Source: Aquabacterium lacunae (GTDB taxonomy: Bacteria > Pseudomonadota > Gammaproteobacteria > Burkholderiales > Burkholderiaceae_C). From it: a stretch of 64,000 nucleotides of DNA. The DNA lies in the NCBI RefSeq assembly GCF_004310865.1, contig NZ_SIXI01000004.1, positions 372,001-436,000 on the forward strand, given 5' to 3'. The notes under the pieces are model-generated. The model was given only the letters and a program-made list of their open reading frames with translations. It did not search any database and had not been told where the DNA came from. Below are positions 28,136-57,495 of the stretch, one piece after another. The stretch's first letter is position 1, and each line of letters begins with the position of its first letter. The position numbers and the translations under genes are program-made.

Positions 28136-28163
28136 TCACGGCCCGGCGGCCCACAAAGCAAAA

Positions 28164-28187
28164 CCCCGGAGGCTTGCACCTCCGGGG
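28164..28187 (-). terminator. second intrinsic terminator downstream of the small peptide genes
   Basis: CCCCGGAGG (28164-28172) pairs with CCTCCGGGG (28179-28187). Minus-strand TTTTGCTTT follows the stem. It acts on the minus strand behind the terminator at 28206-28230; on the plus strand there is no T run, so help for the TetR gene is uncertain. Confidence 0.7.
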
Positions 28188-28205
28188 CTGTCGGTCTTGA
28201 TCGTC

Positions 28206-28230
28206 AAAAAGCGCCGCCAGTCAGCGGCGC
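28206..28230 (-). terminator. intrinsic terminator after peptide copy 1
   Basis: GCGCCGC (28211-28217) pairs with GCGGCGC (28224-28230) and is followed on the minus strand by TTTTT. It lies 11 bases after the stop of the peptide gene. Confidence 0.9.
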
Positions 28231-28240
28231 TCATTCATGT

Positions 28241-28420
28241 TCAGATCAGCACCTTGAGCAGGGCCGAGCCGGTCTTGACCAGGGGGGTGCCCACGATCAC
28301 GCCGGCGTTGTACAGACCGGAACCCAGGGCCACACCGGCCTGAGCGCCCGTCTTCACGGCCGAAGTCAGGATGCCGGCGCCGGCGACTTGTTGCACTTGC
28401 TTTTGGTTCAGTTGTTGCAT
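28241..28420 (-). CDS. 59-residue double-glycine-leader peptide, copy 1
   Basis: I do not recognise this gene. It encodes 59 residues with no Asp or Glu. Residues 1-15 (MQQLNQKQVQQVAGA) fit the double-glycine leader consensus L-S-x-x-E-L-x-x-V-x-G-G at L4, N5, Q8, V9, V12, G14 and A15, so cleavage after GA would leave a 44-residue core. The core carries K23, K49 and K56, is otherwise hydrophobic, and has glycine-zipper spacing: G25, G29, G33, then G40, G44. There are no cysteines. Such features suit a class II bacteriocin-like or other exported peptide that inserts in membranes. GGAG lies 8 bases before the ATG. An identical protein is encoded at 28585-28764. No peptidase-type exporter or immunity gene lies nearby. 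The product type is inference. Confidence 0.75.
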   Translation of the reverse strand: MQQLNQKQVQQVAGAGILTSAVKTGAQAGVALGSGLYNAGVIVGTPLVKTGSALLKVLI

Positions 28421-28547
28421 GGTACTTCTCCAATCAATATGTATTCAGACCACAGGAATATAAAGAACAGGCAGAAAACCCTTGCGAGAATTCAAGCACC
28501 CATTCTTGGCCGCGACGAAATCAACAGCCCCATATATTCAATGTCAA

Positions 28548-28569
28548 TGGGCTTAAATGAATAAGCCCA
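28548..28569. repeat. hairpin between the two peptide genes
   Basis: TGGGCTTA (28548-28555) and TAAGCCCA (28562-28569) form a perfect 8-bp stem with a 6-base loop, 16 bases after the stop of copy 2. There is no T run after it in either direction, so it may be a weak terminator, attenuator or RNA stabiliser between the two genes. Confidence 0.45.
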
Positions 28570-28584
28570 CGGAGCTCTTGAATA

Positions 28585-28764
28585 TCAGATCAGCACCTTC
28601 AGCAGGGCCGAACCGGTCTTCACCAGCGGGGTGCCGACGATCACGCCAGCGTTGTACAGGCCAGAGCCCAGGGCCACGCCTGCTTGGGCACCCGTCTTCA
28701 CGGCCGAGGTCAGGATGCCAGCGCCGGCGACTTGTTGCACTTGCTTTTGGTTCAGTTGTTGCAT
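28585..28764 (-). CDS. 59-residue double-glycine-leader peptide, copy 2
   Basis: It encodes exactly the same 59 residues as copy 1. Codon-by-codon comparison shows 16 base differences, all silent, and the first 14 codons identical. Such a pattern means the duplication is old and the protein sequence has been held by selection. The ribosome-binding site is weaker (GGA, about 11 bases upstream) than that of copy 1, so expression may differ. It is transcribed in the same direction, with 164 bases and a hairpin between the copies; a tandem unit is likely. The upstream region is unusually AT-rich for this chromosome. Longer frames that read into the leader region are not supported. Confidence 0.75.
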   Translation of the reverse strand: MQQLNQKQVQQVAGAGILTSAVKTGAQAGVALGSGLYNAGVIVGTPLVKTGSALLKVLI

Positions 28765-29317
28765 TTTGCTTGTTCCAGTCAGTGTGAGGTTTTTGGAATC
28801 TGTGGGCCGCTGGCTTGTTGCTTTGCGAATCCACAACTTCACTTTACCCTTTGCAAAACAGCCTCTCCCAGCGGGGAATATCACCCCGCCCCACATTTCC
28901 CCTCAAAAAGGGGGATGGGTTATCACGAAGCTCGGCTTGGCGCGATCTGGTAATTCAAACCGAAAATGGGAATTAATATTTCCGAACACAATTTCACAAT
29001 GCAAAAACGGTAATGTCTGCTTCTGACAGATTGTCGGCAATGTGACCTTTTTCATGCACATGACAGTGTCGAGTCCGTGAACTCCCTCAGACGTGTCACC
29101 TTTTGACAAGGTGCTCGGCGAGGCTCGCCCTCCTCCAGGACAGGCGGCAGGTGCTGGAACAGCCGCACACAGGGTTTACACGATTTGGCGCTTTGTGCCC
29201 CCTGCGTCTTCCGCAACTGAATGCCCGCCGCTGGATGCGCCATGACGTCAAAAACGTCACGCCTGCAGGCAAAAGAGCCCGCCCTCCCTCTGGTGTCCGC
29301 GGCAGAGGCCTGCCAAC
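28765..29317. other. AT-richer intergenic region upstream of the peptide genes
   Basis: 553 bases with no gene I can support. It holds hairpins GCGGGG/CCCCGC (28873-28891), CCCCT/AGGGG (28901-28915) and CACCTT/AAGGTG (29097-29113), an inverted repeat TGACGT/ACGTCA (29243-29259), and a stretch around 28940-29040 that is clearly poorer in GC than its surroundings. It should contain the promoter of the peptide genes (minus) and of the flagellar-like gene (plus), but no clear -35/-10 pair stands out. Confidence 0.5.
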
Positions 29318-29626
29318 ATGGCACGCATGAGCACCACTGGCATTGCCCTGTCTGGCATGAACGCCGCGATGTTGCAGCTCGACGTGAGCGCCAACAACAT
29401 CGCCAATGCACAGACGCCCAACTACCGCAAACAGGCGGTGGCACTCGAGGCTGCGCCTGAAGCTCAGGGCGTCAAGGCCACCATCGTGCAAACGCGCGAG
29501 GCCCAGTCGTCCATCGAAGGCGATGTGGTCGGGCAGATGGCCGCGACCTACTACTTCCGCGCGAACCTGAAAGTGCTTCAGACCGAGGAGCGCATGATGG
29601 GCTCGCTGCTCGACGCCCGCGCCTGA
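29318..29626 (+). CDS. minimal flagellar basal-body-rod-like protein
   Basis: 102 residues made almost only of the two terminal segments of flagellar rod and hook proteins. The N-terminal part is GMNAAMLQLDVSANNIANAQ and TPNYRKQ; the C-terminal part is MAATYYFRANLKVLQTEERM then MGSLLDARA. The middle domain found in FlgB, FlgC, FlgF and FlgG is absent; the linker is only about 25 residues. The two ends pair as helices in the rod (the D0 region), so this could be a D0-only rod-like subunit or a relic. No other flagellar gene lies in the window. Starts at ATG 29318; ATG 29327 is also possible. Confidence 0.75.
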   Translation: MARMSTTGIALSGMNAAMLQLDVSANNIANAQTPNYRKQAVALEAAPEAQGVKATIVQTREAQSSIEGDVVGQMAATYYFRANLKVLQTEERMMGSLLDARA

Positions 29627-52931: not shown

Positions 52932-55190
52932 TCATTCGGCATCCAGGGCCGCGTCCTGCTCGGCCTTGCGGGCCTGGGCTTCGTACAGGCGCCAGTAGGC
53001 GCCCTGGCGGGCCATCAGTTCGTCGTGCGGGCCCACCTCCACCACCTGGCCGCGGTCCATCACCACCAGGCGATCGGCCTTGCGCAGCGTGGACAGGCGG
53101 TGCGCAATGGCGATGGTGGTGCGGCCTTGCACCAGGTTGTCGAGCGCGCGCTGGATTTCCTTTTCGGTCTCGGTGTCGACCGCCGAAGTGGCCTCGTCCA
53201 GGATCAGGATGCGCGGGTTGATCAGCAGCGCGCGGGCAATGCTGATGCGCTGGCGCTCGCCGCCCGACAGGCCCTGGCCACGTTCACCCACCAGCGAGTC
53301 ATAGCCCTGCGGCAGGCGCAGGATGAACTCGTGCGCGTGGGCTGCACGGGCCGCGGCCACGATCTCTTCGCGGGTGGCGTCGGGCTTGCCGTAGGCGATG
53401 TTCTCGGCGATGGTGCCAAAGAACAGGAAGGGTTCCTGCAGCACCAGGCCGATGTGGCGGCGGAAATCCGACACGCCGATGCGGCGGATGTCGACGCCGT
53501 CGAGCTTGATGGCGCCATCGGTCACGTCGTAGAAGCGGCAGATCAGGTTGACCAGCGTGCTCTTGCCCGAGCCGCTGTGGCCCACCAGGCCGATCATCTC
53601 GCCCGGCTTGATCTCCAGGTTCAGGCTGCGGATGACCGAACGGCTGCCATAACGGAAGCCCACCGACTCCATCTGCAGGCCGCCCTGCACCGTCTTGAGC
53701 GGCACCGGGTGGGCCGGCTCGGGCACGCTGCTGACGTGGTCGAGGATGTCGAAGATGCGCTTGGCGCCGGCCGCAGCCTTCTGCGTGACCGACACGATGC
53801 GGCTCATGGAATCGAGGCGCCCGTAAAAGCGCCCGATGTAGGCCAGGAAGGCGGTCAGCACACCCACGGTGATGTCGTGGTGCGAGATCAGCCAGATGCC
53901 GAAGGCCCAGACCACCAGCAAGCCGATCTCTGTCATCAGGGCCACGGTGGGCGAAAACAGCGACCAGGTCTTGTTCAGGCGGTCGTTGATCTCGAGGTTG
54001 TGCTGGTTGGCATCCTTGAAGCGCTGGGCTTCTCGGGCCTCCTGGGCAAAGGCCTTGACCACGCGGATGCCCGGGATGGTGTCGGCCAGCACGTTGGTGA
54101 CCTCGCCCCACACGCGGTCGATCTTTTCAAAGCCGGTGCGCAATCGGTCACGCACCAGGTGGATCAGCCAGGCGATGAAAGGCAGCGGGATCAGGGTGAC
54201 CAGCGCCAGCCAGGGGTTGATCGACAGCAGGATGCCGGCGGTCATGGTGATCATGAGCACGTCGGTGGCGAAATCGAGCGCATGCAGCGACAGGAACACG
54301 CTGAGGCGGTCGGTTTCCGAACCGATGCGGGCCATCAGGTCACCTGTGCGCTTGGAGCCGAAATAATCGAGCGACAGGCCCAGCAGGTGGTCGAAGGTGG
54401 CGGTGCGCAGGTCGGCACTGATGCGCTCGGACACCAGGGCCAGCAGGTAGGTGCGCGCCCAGCTCAAGGCCCAGGCCACCACGGCCGAGCCCAGCAGCCC
54501 GCTGAGCAGCCAGGCCACCAGGTGCGGGTCGATGGCCTGCCCGTTCTGGAACGGGATCAGCACCTTGTCCATCAGGGGAATGGTGAGGTAAGGCGCCACC
54601 AGGGTGGCCGCAGTGGAGGCCAAGGTCAGCAGAAAGCCGGCCAGCAGCTGCCCTTGGTAAGGTTTGGCGAAGCGCCACAGGCGCAGCAACACCCAGGTCG
54701 ACGGTGGGGTTTCCAGCTCGCGGCTGCAAACCGGGCAATCGTCGGCATCGGGCGGCAACTGAGCCTTGCAGCTCGGGCACTGGGTCAGGTCCTCGTCCGA
54801 CACCTGGGGGCCGTGGGCCATGTCGTGCAGTCGGCGCTCGAACTGTTCCACCAGACGCAAAACGGGCACCTGGCTGCCCAGGGTGAAACGCCAGACGTGC
54901 AAGCGACTGGCCGCGTCGTGCAGGGCCAGGGTGCCCACCCCGGCATGGTCGTGGTGCTGAAGGCGCAGACCCGGGTTCAGGGGCCAGGCACGCCACTGCC
55001 CACCCTCTTCCAGGGTCAACAGGCGCTGATCTGTGAGGATAATCGGGGCTTTTGTGAAGCGAAGTTTCGCATTCAGGTCAACCTCGGCATTGGCCAGGAC
55101 GTTTTCATTCACTGCAAGAGGCGCTTGCAGGGCCGCCCGTTCGGGGCCAACATGAACGCCAGAGGCATCCGCGTGAGCGTGTTGGTGCAT
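52932..55190 (-). CDS. ABC transporter with N-terminal zinc ribbon, cyanophycin-associated
   Basis: 752 residues: membrane and ATPase domains in one chain. The first 145 residues are a soluble domain ending in a zinc ribbon (CPSCKAQLPPDADDCPVCSR). Six membrane helices follow (about 160-440), then an ATPase: GHSGSGKSTLVNLI (Walker A), LSGGERQRISIARAL (signature), ILDEATSAVD (Walker B). No C39 peptidase domain, so it is not a bacteriocin exporter. Divergent from the CphA genes, in the gene order known for cyanophycin clusters; a transport role for cyanophycin precursors or dipeptides is inference. ATG 55190 is used; a GTG 24 bases earlier is possible. Confidence 0.9.
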   Translation of the reverse strand: MHQHAHADASGVHVGPERAALQAPLAVNENVLANAEVDLNAKLRFTKAPIILTDQRLLTLEEGGQWRAWPLNPGLRLQHHDHAGVGTLALHDAASRLHVWRFTLGSQVPVLRLVEQFERRLHDMAHGPQVSDEDLTQCPSCKAQLPPDADDCPVCSRELETPPSTWVLLRLWRFAKPYQGQLLAGFLLTLASTAATLVAPYLTIPLMDKVLIPFQNGQAIDPHLVAWLLSGLLGSAVVAWALSWARTYLLALVSERISADLRTATFDHLLGLSLDYFGSKRTGDLMARIGSETDRLSVFLSLHALDFATDVLMITMTAGILLSINPWLALVTLIPLPFIAWLIHLVRDRLRTGFEKIDRVWGEVTNVLADTIPGIRVVKAFAQEAREAQRFKDANQHNLEINDRLNKTWSLFSPTVALMTEIGLLVVWAFGIWLISHHDITVGVLTAFLAYIGRFYGRLDSMSRIVSVTQKAAAGAKRIFDILDHVSSVPEPAHPVPLKTVQGGLQMESVGFRYGSRSVIRSLNLEIKPGEMIGLVGHSGSGKSTLVNLICRFYDVTDGAIKLDGVDIRRIGVSDFRRHIGLVLQEPFLFFGTIAENIAYGKPDATREEIVAAARAAHAHEFILRLPQGYDSLVGERGQGLSGGERQRISIARALLINPRILILDEATSAVDTETEKEIQRALDNLVQGRTTIAIAHRLSTLRKADRLVVMDRGQVVEVGPHDELMARQGAYWRLYEAQARKAEQDAALDAE

Positions 55191-55293
55191 GGTGGTGATG
55201 GTTGGACGAGGCACTCGGACAACGCCTCAAGAACCTCCGCAAGGTTGGCATTCTCGCGCAAGCCGGCCACCCCGCAACCCAGACTTGCAGCCC

Positions 55294-57495
55294 ATGAGCA
55301 AGAAGAACGACATCCAACTGCTTCGCATCACCCACCTGCGAGGTCCGAACATCTGGACCTACCGCCCCGCGCTGGAAGTCTGGCTCGACCTCGGTGAACT
55401 GGAAGATTTCCCCAGCAACCTGCTGCCCGGCCTGACCGAGCGCCTGACCGGCTGGCTGCCGGCCCTGGTCGAGCACCACTGCGGTGTGGGTGAGCGTGGC
55501 GGCTTCCTGCAGCGCCTGGAAGAAGGCACCTGGATGGGCCACGTGCTGGAACACGTGGTGATCGAGTTGCTGAACCTGGCCGGCATGCCCACCGGCTTTG
55601 GTCAGACCCGCAGCACCAGCCAGCGCGGCGTGTACCGCATGGTGTTCCGGGCCCGCGACGAACAGGTGGCCCGTTGTGCACTGCAGCAAGGCCACGCCCT
55701 GCTGATGGCAGCCATCAACGACGAACCCTTTGACGTGAAAGCGGCCGTCGAACTGGTGCGCGAACAGATCGACGACTGCTACCTGGGACCATCCACCGCC
55801 GCCATCGTGGGGGCCGCCACCGACCGCGGCATCCCGCACATCCGCCTGAACGACGGCAACCTGGTGCAGCTGGGCTACGGCGCGGCGCAGCGGCGCATCT
55901 GGACGGCCGAGACCGACAAGACCAGCGCCATTGCCGAAAACATCGCCAGCAACAAGGACCTGACCAAGTCGCTGCTCAAATCGTGCGGCGTGCCGGTGCC
56001 CGAAGGCGAAGTAGTCGACAGCCCCGAGGCCGCCTGGGAAGCCGCACAAGACATCGGCCTGCCCGTGGTGCTCAAGCCGCTGGACGGCAACCATGGCCGT
56101 GGCGTGTCGCTGGAGCTGACCGAGCGCGCCGACATCGAAGCGGCCTTCAAGGTGGCCGAGGCCGAGGGCAGCGACGTGATCGTGGAGCGTTATGTGCCCG
56201 GCGACGAGCACCGCCTGCTGGTGGTGGGCGGTCAGGTGGTGGCCGCCGCCCGCGGTGAAAGCCTGTGGATCACGGGCAATGGCCGCGACAGCGTGCGCCG
56301 CCTGATCGACGACCAGCTCAATTCCGACCCGCGCCGCGGCGAGGCCGAAGAATTCCCGCTGGAAACCATCATCCTGGAGCGCGAGCCGGCCATGTGCCTG
56401 CTGCTGGAACGGCAAGGCCTGAACCCCGAATCGGTGCCTGCCGCCGGGCAGCGCGTGCTGGTGCAGCGCAACGGCAACGTGGCCATCGACTGCACCGACG
56501 ACGTGCACCCCGACGTGGCCTTTGCCGCCTCGCTGGCCGCGCGCGTGGTGGGCCTGGACATCGCCGGCATCGACCTGGTGGTGAGCGACATCTCCAAGCC
56601 GCTGGCCCCGCAACGTGGCGCCATCGTGGAAGTGAACGCGGGACCCGGCCTGCTGATGCACCTCAAGCCCGCAGAAGGCCTGCCCCGCCCGGTGGGCCAG
56701 GCCATTGCCGACCACCTGTTCAGCGCCGACGAAACCGGCCGCATCCCCCTGATCGGCATTGGCGGCACGCAAGGCGGCGCCACCATCGCCCGCCTGACCG
56801 CCTGGTTCCTGCACCTGAGCGGCAAGCACGTGGGCCTGGCCTGCGGCGACGGTCTGTTTCTGGCCAACCGCCGCGTGGAAACACGCCCCAGCGCCACGTT
56901 CGATGCAGGCCAGCGCCTGCTGATGAACCGCGACGTGAACGCCGTGGTGATCGAAAACGGCCCGGCCAGCATCCTGGGGCACGGCCTGGCCTACGACCGC
57001 TGCCAGGTGGGCGTGGTGACCGATGCAGCCAGCATCGACGGCCTGGTCCACCACGACGTGCACGAGCACGCGCAGCTGTTCAAGGTGCTTCGCACCCAGA
57101 TCGACGTGGTGCTGGACCAGGGCACCGGCGTGCTCAATGCCGATGACGCCCTGCTGGCCGACATGGCCGAGCTGTGCGATGGCAGCGTGCTGCTGTACAC
57201 CACGAACCCCGAGCACCCGGCGGTGCAGGCCCACCGTGCCAGGGACGGCCGGGCCCTGATCGGCCTGCCCGAACACATTCAGATCTTCCAGGGCCAGCAG
57301 CCCGCAGGCCGCGTGCCTTTGCAGGGCGCTGCCGCACAGCGCGTGCTGGCCACTCTGCAGGAGCGCCATGGCCTGAACGCTGACGATGCCCGACGCGCCC
57401 TGATGGCCGCCGTCGGCGCCGCCTGGTCGCTGGGTGTGGCGCCCGAGCTGGTCAATGCCGGCCTGGAAACCTTTGCCACCACGCTGCCCGCCTGA
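55294..57495 (+). CDS. cyanophycin synthetase-like protein lacking the Mur-ligase P-loop
   Basis: 733 residues, close to CphA in the first two thirds. N-terminal domain and ATP-grasp region (GLPVVLKPLDGNHGRGVSLE, IVERYVPGDEHRLLVVGGQV, IVEVNAGPGLLMHL) are intact. The third, Mur-ligase-like domain is degenerate: the ATP loop reads GGTQGGATIARL (about residues 489-500) where active CphA has GTNGKTTTARL, and the NTDG motif is changed. It should therefore run only one of the two ligase reactions, as CphA2 proteins do when they polymerise aspartyl-arginine dipeptides; that role is inference. Located 29 bases upstream of cphA. Start 55294 precedes a good SKKNDIQLLRI domain; upstream frame rejected. 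Confidence 0.85.
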   Translation: MSKKNDIQLLRITHLRGPNIWTYRPALEVWLDLGELEDFPSNLLPGLTERLTGWLPALVEHHCGVGERGGFLQRLEEGTWMGHVLEHVVIELLNLAGMPTGFGQTRSTSQRGVYRMVFRARDEQVARCALQQGHALLMAAINDEPFDVKAAVELVREQIDDCYLGPSTAAIVGAATDRGIPHIRLNDGNLVQLGYGAAQRRIWTAETDKTSAIAENIASNKDLTKSLLKSCGVPVPEGEVVDSPEAAWEAAQDIGLPVVLKPLDGNHGRGVSLELTERADIEAAFKVAEAEGSDVIVERYVPGDEHRLLVVGGQVVAAARGESLWITGNGRDSVRRLIDDQLNSDPRRGEAEEFPLETIILEREPAMCLLLERQGLNPESVPAAGQRVLVQRNGNVAIDCTDDVHPDVAFAASLAARVVGLDIAGIDLVVSDISKPLAPQRGAIVEVNAGPGLLMHLKPAEGLPRPVGQAIADHLFSADETGRIPLIGIGGTQGGATIARLTAWFLHLSGKHVGLACGDGLFLANRRVETRPSATFDAGQRLLMNRDVNAVVIENGPASILGHGLAYDRCQVGVVTDAASIDGLVHHDVHEHAQLFKVLRTQIDVVLDQGTGVLNADDALLADMAELCDGSVLLYTTNPEHPAVQAHRARDGRALIGLPEHIQIFQGQQPAGRVPLQGAAAQRVLATLQERHGLNADDARRALMAAVGAAWSLGVAPELVNAGLETFATTLPA

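Follow-up and report, generated by a model that had tools for sequence, protein, structure and literature searches.

Two identical double-glycine-leader peptide genes in Aquabacterium lacunae and a predicted link to a C39 exporter encoded elsewhere in the genome

Two neighbouring genes of Aquabacterium lacunae encode one and the same 59-residue peptide with a double-glycine-type leader, and comparison across the genus ties this peptide to a C39-peptidase ABC exporter encoded on another contig, C64. The window analysed here is the whole stretch of 64,000 nucleotides that contains the pair. Our reading, to which we give a probability of roughly 55%, is that the peptide is exported and cleaved by the C64 exporter and acts as a membrane-active, microcin- or Cdz-like peptide. 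Its parts differ in strength. Export and cleavage by the C64 exporter are very likely on comparative grounds. Membrane-active antibacterial action of the microcin or Cdz type, suggested by charge, a small-residue helix, lineage-specific cores and resemblance to known peptides, has about an even chance. Genome comparison supports the leader assignment, the connection to the exporter and selection acting on both genes.

Copy 1 lies at 28241..28420 on the minus strand, with an ATG start and a ribosome-site-like GGAGAAG upstream, and copy 2 lies at 28585..28764 on the same strand. The first-pass annotation had claimed a single 59-residue product for both genes, and the translations of the two frames are indeed identical. 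In copy 1, the leader (residues 1–15, MQQLNQKQVQQVAGA) occupies 28376..28420 on the minus strand, with a predicted cut after A15, and the predicted mature core of 44 residues, cationic and rich in small residues of the glycine-zipper kind, occupies 28244..28375 (minus strand). The corresponding positions in copy 2 are 28720..28764 for leader residues 1–15 and 28588..28719 for the same predicted core, both on the minus strand. At the DNA level there are 16 differences between them over 180 bases, ~0.32 per synonymous site. All 16 differences are at synonymous third positions, implying purifying selection on both coding sequences. The flanks of the two copies are unrelated both upstream and downstream. 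Silent-only differences together with unrelated flanks make it probable that both copies have been kept for the same product over considerable time, and they rule out an assembly duplicate or very recent copying. As to why there are two, we infer that the second copy, with its unrelated upstream DNA, probably raises the dose of this product or allows it to be expressed under a second condition. The DNA pattern of the leader start matches twice in the window, both times at these genes (expected 0.00), and none of the other window frames of 30–159 amino acids fits the general leader expression.

The first 15 residues end in VAGA, with GA at the cut site, and the double-glycine leader proposed by the first-pass annotation is strongly supported. 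Position −8 is Gln in the window peptide and Glu in 57 of 62 aligned rows. The core has 44 residues with three Lys and no acidic residue, as had been described. The two proposed glycine zippers stand in part: G25, G29 and G40 are conserved in the family, whereas G33 (37/62 rows) and G44 (28/62) are not. The best-conserved small residues are instead G25, A28, G29, A31, G35, A39 and G40, each present in 56–61 of the 62 rows, and the nearly or fully invariant core positions also include G16, L18, T24, I42, V43, P46 and K56. Read by eye, G25-G29-G33 and G40-G44 sit between K23 and P46. The peptide ends in LLKVLI, and the last three alignment columns are hydrophobic in 62 of 62 rows. An AlphaFold model gives a single helix over residues 6–58, at low confidence (mean pLDDT 66.1, pTM 0.29). 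The best 19-residue hydropathy mean of the window core is 1.6, a value that 29 of the 62 rows reach, and its other stretches are lower. Helical periodicity of conservation reached p 0.026 in one of four segments (0.12, 0.12 and 0.84 in the others) and is not relied on here.

A single-sequence protein search with the window peptide returned 4 relatives. A profile search returned 66 matches, 64 of them at E < 1e-6 and none with a precomputed Pfam domain. The relatives are small proteins, unnamed or ‘hypothetical’; 2 of the 66 are labelled Aquabacterium sp., and 55 of the 64 are known solely from contigs shorter than 10 kb. The first-pass annotation had named homologues that are structural or cytoplasmic proteins, or a lack of any, as outcomes against its interpretation; with these 64 relatives, neither was seen. 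The alignment of 62 rows comprises 61 of the 66 profile matches plus the window peptide, leaving out P0052, P0053, P0063, P0065 and P0066, which are extended, seemingly frame-broken, truncated or weak. Whole-precursor identity to the window peptide ranges from 44% to 93%. Core net charge lies between +1 and +5 across the rows, with 3 acidic residues in all cores combined. Counted from the leader Met, 48 rows are 59 residues long, 6 have 66 residues, 7 have 70 and 1 has 48. These steps of 7 and 11 residues lie near whole helix turns and would be compatible with a helix.

The family is rare among the sampled genomes. Within the genus it occurs in the own genome and in one other, G019, of 42 genomes. 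Scoring the best candidates per genome, up to 16, revealed no convincing relative beyond the own genome, either among 399 family-level or among 399 order-level genomes. Weak matches in 22 other genomes of the 399 at family level (E 2e-4 to 0.01) were partial and mostly within long frames, and were judged to reflect chance or composition. The same judgement applies to weak matches in 12 other genus genomes (E 0.0055 to 0.044), with one exception: in G029 (E 0.04) the match covers the leader alone and belongs to a different peptide type. The genome contig collection yielded no relative by single sequence and, by profile, the G019 contig only; the viral contigs and plasmids searched yielded none. 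No Pfam or NCBIfam model, including the curated microcin and bacteriocin models, matched the window peptide, and PHROGs and PADLOC gave nothing for it. Sister peptide types of the genus gave sub-cut-off matches only, to models for E492 microcin (E 0.075), cerein-type IIb (E 0.087) and an rSAM-modified RiPP (E 0.006). In a literature search of open-licence papers, none of the listed titles and abstract openings described the family, and double-glycine combined with Burkholderiales gave no match.

The own genome (3.9 Mb, 64 contigs) was searched for Peptidase_C39 at E up to 0.01, which identified three places, none of them on the window's contig. The place on C64 is a full C39-peptidase ABC exporter whose operon also encodes a TolC-family protein and an HlyD-type fusion protein. 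The exporter's peptidase domain aligns with that of the double-glycine protease 6mpz (E 1.8e-20), with Cys, His and Asp all matched. The structure is probably the LahT150 named in PMC6363468; in CvaB, according to PMC9746304, the catalytic triad is made up of three residues of this kind. By eye, no Cys was seen at the catalytic place of the other two C39-like proteins, which look like the non-cutting C39-like kind. C64 apparently encodes the genome's one intact peptidase-containing ABC exporter. The earlier statement that no peptidase-type exporter lies near the pair holds for the window, but the genome search recovered a complete TolC/fusion-protein/C39 system on another contig. The ABC transporter at 52932, described earlier as lacking a C39 domain, is not among the C39 places of the genome. 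That gene (52932-55214) stands head to head with 55189-57495, whose product resembles a cyanophycin synthetase. The C64 exporter has a leader peptide of its own just upstream of tolC (locus L013, 4583-4825), Cys- and Pro-rich with the cut site VTGA, which escaped the leader profile described below.

Across the genus, the exporter is present in 26 of 42 genomes (E up to 1e-120), counting those of G032 and G038, which contain an in-frame TGA. In 22 of the 25 exporter loci where tolC could be placed, the start of a double-glycine-leader frame lies no more than 1 kb from the edge of the tolC match. This count covers 25 of 27 exporter places, leaving out G020, where the contig ends in the ABC gene, and G002, where the exporter is 43% identical; tolC positions are tblastn match edges and not starts from an annotation. 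Two peptides spotted by eye led us to widen the leader expression, the narrower version giving 20/25 and the wider 22/25. In 444 kb of loci, its matches number 23 near tolC versus 1 elsewhere. Among the three loci without a nearby leader peptide, L086 and L101 are cut by a contig end, and the genome of L096 (G039) has such a peptide on another contig. A leader profile of 22 positions found peptides in 26 of the 42 genomes, and exporter and peptide co-occur: 25 genomes have both, 1 the exporter only, 1 the peptide only and 15 neither (Fisher 2.5e-9). The exporter-only genome is G002, with its 43% identical exporter, and the peptide-only genome, G015, is 53% complete. With the nine genomes that supplied profile rows set aside, the counts become 16/1/1/15 (Fisher 2.5e-7).

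The peptides fall into nine types that share a leader and little else. Between types, leader identity is 51% and core identity 16%, against 13% for shuffled cores. We had taken all nine core types to be unrelated, and corrected this: of 36 type pairs, B–C alone scores above shuffled cores at p < 0.02. Types B and C are therefore related, leaving eight dissimilar core groups, most of them encoded beside a C39 exporter. Within type B, the cores of different species show strong conservation (eight cores; lowest pair 80%, mean 92%). The own genome carries an orphan type B peptide (ALDPELGLF...; locus L016 on contig C33, start 8301, minus strand) whose counterparts are exporter-adjacent in seven other genus genomes. 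The relative of the window peptide in G019, 46% identical to it, is encoded on the strand opposite to tolC and divergently from it, with 209 nt between its start and the predicted start of tolC. Two different leader peptides, the first with a core ending VLVNVIWGKK and the second with a core containing DWSK, also lie in tandem, always in this order, in three genomes: the own genome (L091, 9773-9934 and 9937-10101, corresponding to 150272-150600 of contig C11), G019 (L197, contig C91) and G003 (L183, contig C7).

The window pair sits between a fatty-acid-oxidation cluster, named by eye, and a surface-polysaccharide cluster. The TetR gene next to it occurs in 37 of the 42 genomes of the genus, and at this gene 29 other genus genomes have no leader-fitting frame within ~1.5 kb, for which reason the pair looks like a lineage-specific gain at the junction of the two clusters. 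Near the polysaccharide genes, 29318-29626 encodes a stand-alone 102-residue protein whose sole domain is the flagellar basal-body rod N-terminal domain. The earlier remark that no immunity protein lies near agrees with our own inspection, in which none of the frames next to the window copies was recognised as a candidate; those that are small and hydrophobic overlap or run antisense to other genes. Clustering the small frames around 24 peptide loci likewise gave no conserved frame recognisable as an immunity gene.

Candidate regulatory elements were also examined. A hairpin of 12 pairs resembling an intrinsic terminator lies downstream of copy 1 (28162..28189, minus strand), and further terminator-like hairpins lie just past its stop (28212..28229, minus strand), all as consensus matches only; the scanned stretch has 6 such sites versus a mean of 1.9 in shuffles. 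A sigma-70 promoter scan gave 0 matches. An inverted repeat, CCCCCTTTTTGAGGGG, lies ~150 nt upstream of copy 2 (28899..28914, minus strand) and is a weak candidate operator. The pattern CCCCCTTTTN{1,3}GGGG occurs at 3 places in the own genome: 28899-28914 of the window, 150171-150184 of contig C11 and 204658-204671 of contig C44. The first two are upstream of leader-peptide genes, in the C11 case those of two other leader peptides, and the third is upstream of a glycosyltransferase near an apparent exosortase (names by eye). In other genomes of the genus, the 16 places listed (two of them overlapping) all lack a leader-fitting frame within ~1.5 kb, and we rejected the pattern as a shared operator; as an operator in the own genome the repeat is a weak lead.

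These results suggest the following mechanism. Each gene would yield a 59-residue precursor, whose 15-residue leader would be recognised by the C39 domain of the C64 exporter and cut after Gly14-Ala15. The exporter, with its own membrane-fusion protein and TolC-family channel, would then carry the cationic core of 44 residues through both membranes. In or on membranes this core is most likely helical, packed via G25, A28, G29, A31, G35, A39 and G40, and its action outside the cell would be that of a membrane-active peptide of the microcin or Cdz kind, either released or kept on the producer surface. Cleavage in this organism, helix packing and antibacterial action are the steps that we infer. 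The leader and secretion are strongly supported because the same leader precedes eight dissimilar core groups, the leader peptides co-occur with the exporter and the own genome has an apparently intact exporter; to this extent the first-pass interpretation is upheld. A class II bacteriocin-like or membrane-active peptide, as then suggested, remains the best guess, and no immunity gene was recognised.

Several observations count against an antibacterial role: none of the frames was recognised as an immunity gene, the window core scores low on hydropathy, and the cores of type B show strong conservation, a pattern compatible with signalling or housekeeping as well as with toxicity. The cut peptide might be a pheromone read by a receptor, with leader and exporter used as in Gram-positive quorum peptides. 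Such a role would fit the lack of a recognised immunity gene at the window copies and the type B conservation, and exact recognition would fit the silent-only divergence of the two copies. However, a long, hydrophobic, zipper-rich core such as that of the window peptide is unusual for a soluble pheromone, the family varies (44–93% identity, as above), and a non-systematic look beside the window copies and in the exporter loci with frames listed recognised no sensor kinase. Although PCAT exporters also carry Gram-positive quorum peptides, according to the part of PMC6363468 consulted, we consider a secreted signal unlikely. We are a little more doubtful still of a surface or matrix component, in which the zipper peptide would assemble on the cell surface as a fibre, surfactant or biofilm constituent and not act as a toxin. 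The adjoining surface-polysaccharide cluster speaks for it, as do the surface aggregates that CdzC forms in the account of PMC5380434, but the arrangement is particular to the own genome, the 29 other TetR loci having no leader-fitting frame in that range.

A peptide that acts on its producer, in stationary-phase autolysis or programmed death, would need no immunity partner at the gene, and none was recognised at the window copies. The Neisseria Nap peptides provide a model, as PMC11798529 describes them as cationic peptides with a GG motif that promote autolysis of gonococci without killing competitors; the nap island, however, has the immunity-like napI, a C39 peptidase and a FapF-like channel, unlike the window locus, and we hold this reading to be improbable, to much the same degree as a surface role. 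That the peptide is not exported at all, but is a small cytoplasmic membrane peptide with a merely leader-like N-terminus, is very improbable: the exporter is unlinked to the peptide genes in the own genome, but the leader is common to dissimilar exporter-adjacent cores, and exporter and leader co-occur genus-wide. A broader scheme, which we put forward as rather unlikely, would make the genus host to a cargo-swapping secretion cassette: one exporter and one leader would serve at least eight dissimilar core groups, some exporter-adjacent and others scattered satellites borrowing the exporter. The window pair would then be an immunity-free satellite, whose helical zipper core would change in length by whole turns (7 or 11 residues) and assemble on the surface for kin recognition or contact-dependent antagonism.

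Membrane-active, microcin- or Cdz-like action outside the cell, the reading that we prefer, can be set against known systems. Class IIb bacteriocins combine cationic GxxxG-rich cores with a double-glycine leader and require two different peptides. The window peptide shares the GxxxG-rich cationic core and the leader, but a two-different-peptide bacteriocin is ruled out for the window pair because its products are identical; the C11 pair is the better candidate for a true two-peptide system. GxxxG motifs are also mentioned in PMC5380434. The likeness to Nap, compared by description, lies in a cationic GG-motif peptide with predicted C39 processing. Unlike the window locus, the nap island described in the part of PMC11798529 consulted has its own C39 peptidase NapP, the FapF-like channel NapF and an immunity-like gene.

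The resemblance to the Cdz system of Caulobacter (CdzC/CdzD), taken from the portion of PMC5380434 consulted, is closer in some respects. The window leader ends in G[GAS], the glycine zippers are flanked, not interrupted, by Lys and Pro, secretion is predicted to be of type I, and a strongly variable peptide goes with a conserved exporter. By contrast, the window peptide has 59 residues against the 60–151 given for Cdz (13 of the 62 rows have 66 or 70), lacks a polar or charged C-terminal tail and comes as two identical, not two different, peptides, and no CdzI-like gene was recognised. Type I secretion within 10 kb, part of the definition in that source (PMC5380434), is found for the G019 relative but not for the window pair.

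Class II microcin systems consist of a precursor, an immunity protein, a PCAT, a fusion protein and TolC, as outlined in PMC9746304, and four of these five parts are found here, the exception being the immunity protein, a component that is hard to detect by sequence according to the same outline (PMC9746304). Like microcin V and E492, the window peptide is a small precursor with a GG/GA-type leader, its genome has a C39 ABC exporter with Cys, His and Asp, a membrane-fusion protein and a TolC-type channel, and in the genus the core is variable and the exporter conserved. It differs in that the window locus has no recognised immunity gene, the exporter is on another contig and no NCBIfam microcin model matches the peptide. 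The comparison suggests that such peptides need not be encoded near their exporter or next to a recognisable immunity gene, and that searches demanding both adjacent would therefore miss them. An unnamed peptide family is now tied to a specific exporter, so its export, cleavage and activity are directly testable. We regard it as a new family that works like these known systems, and claim no membership for it in the microcins or Cdz.
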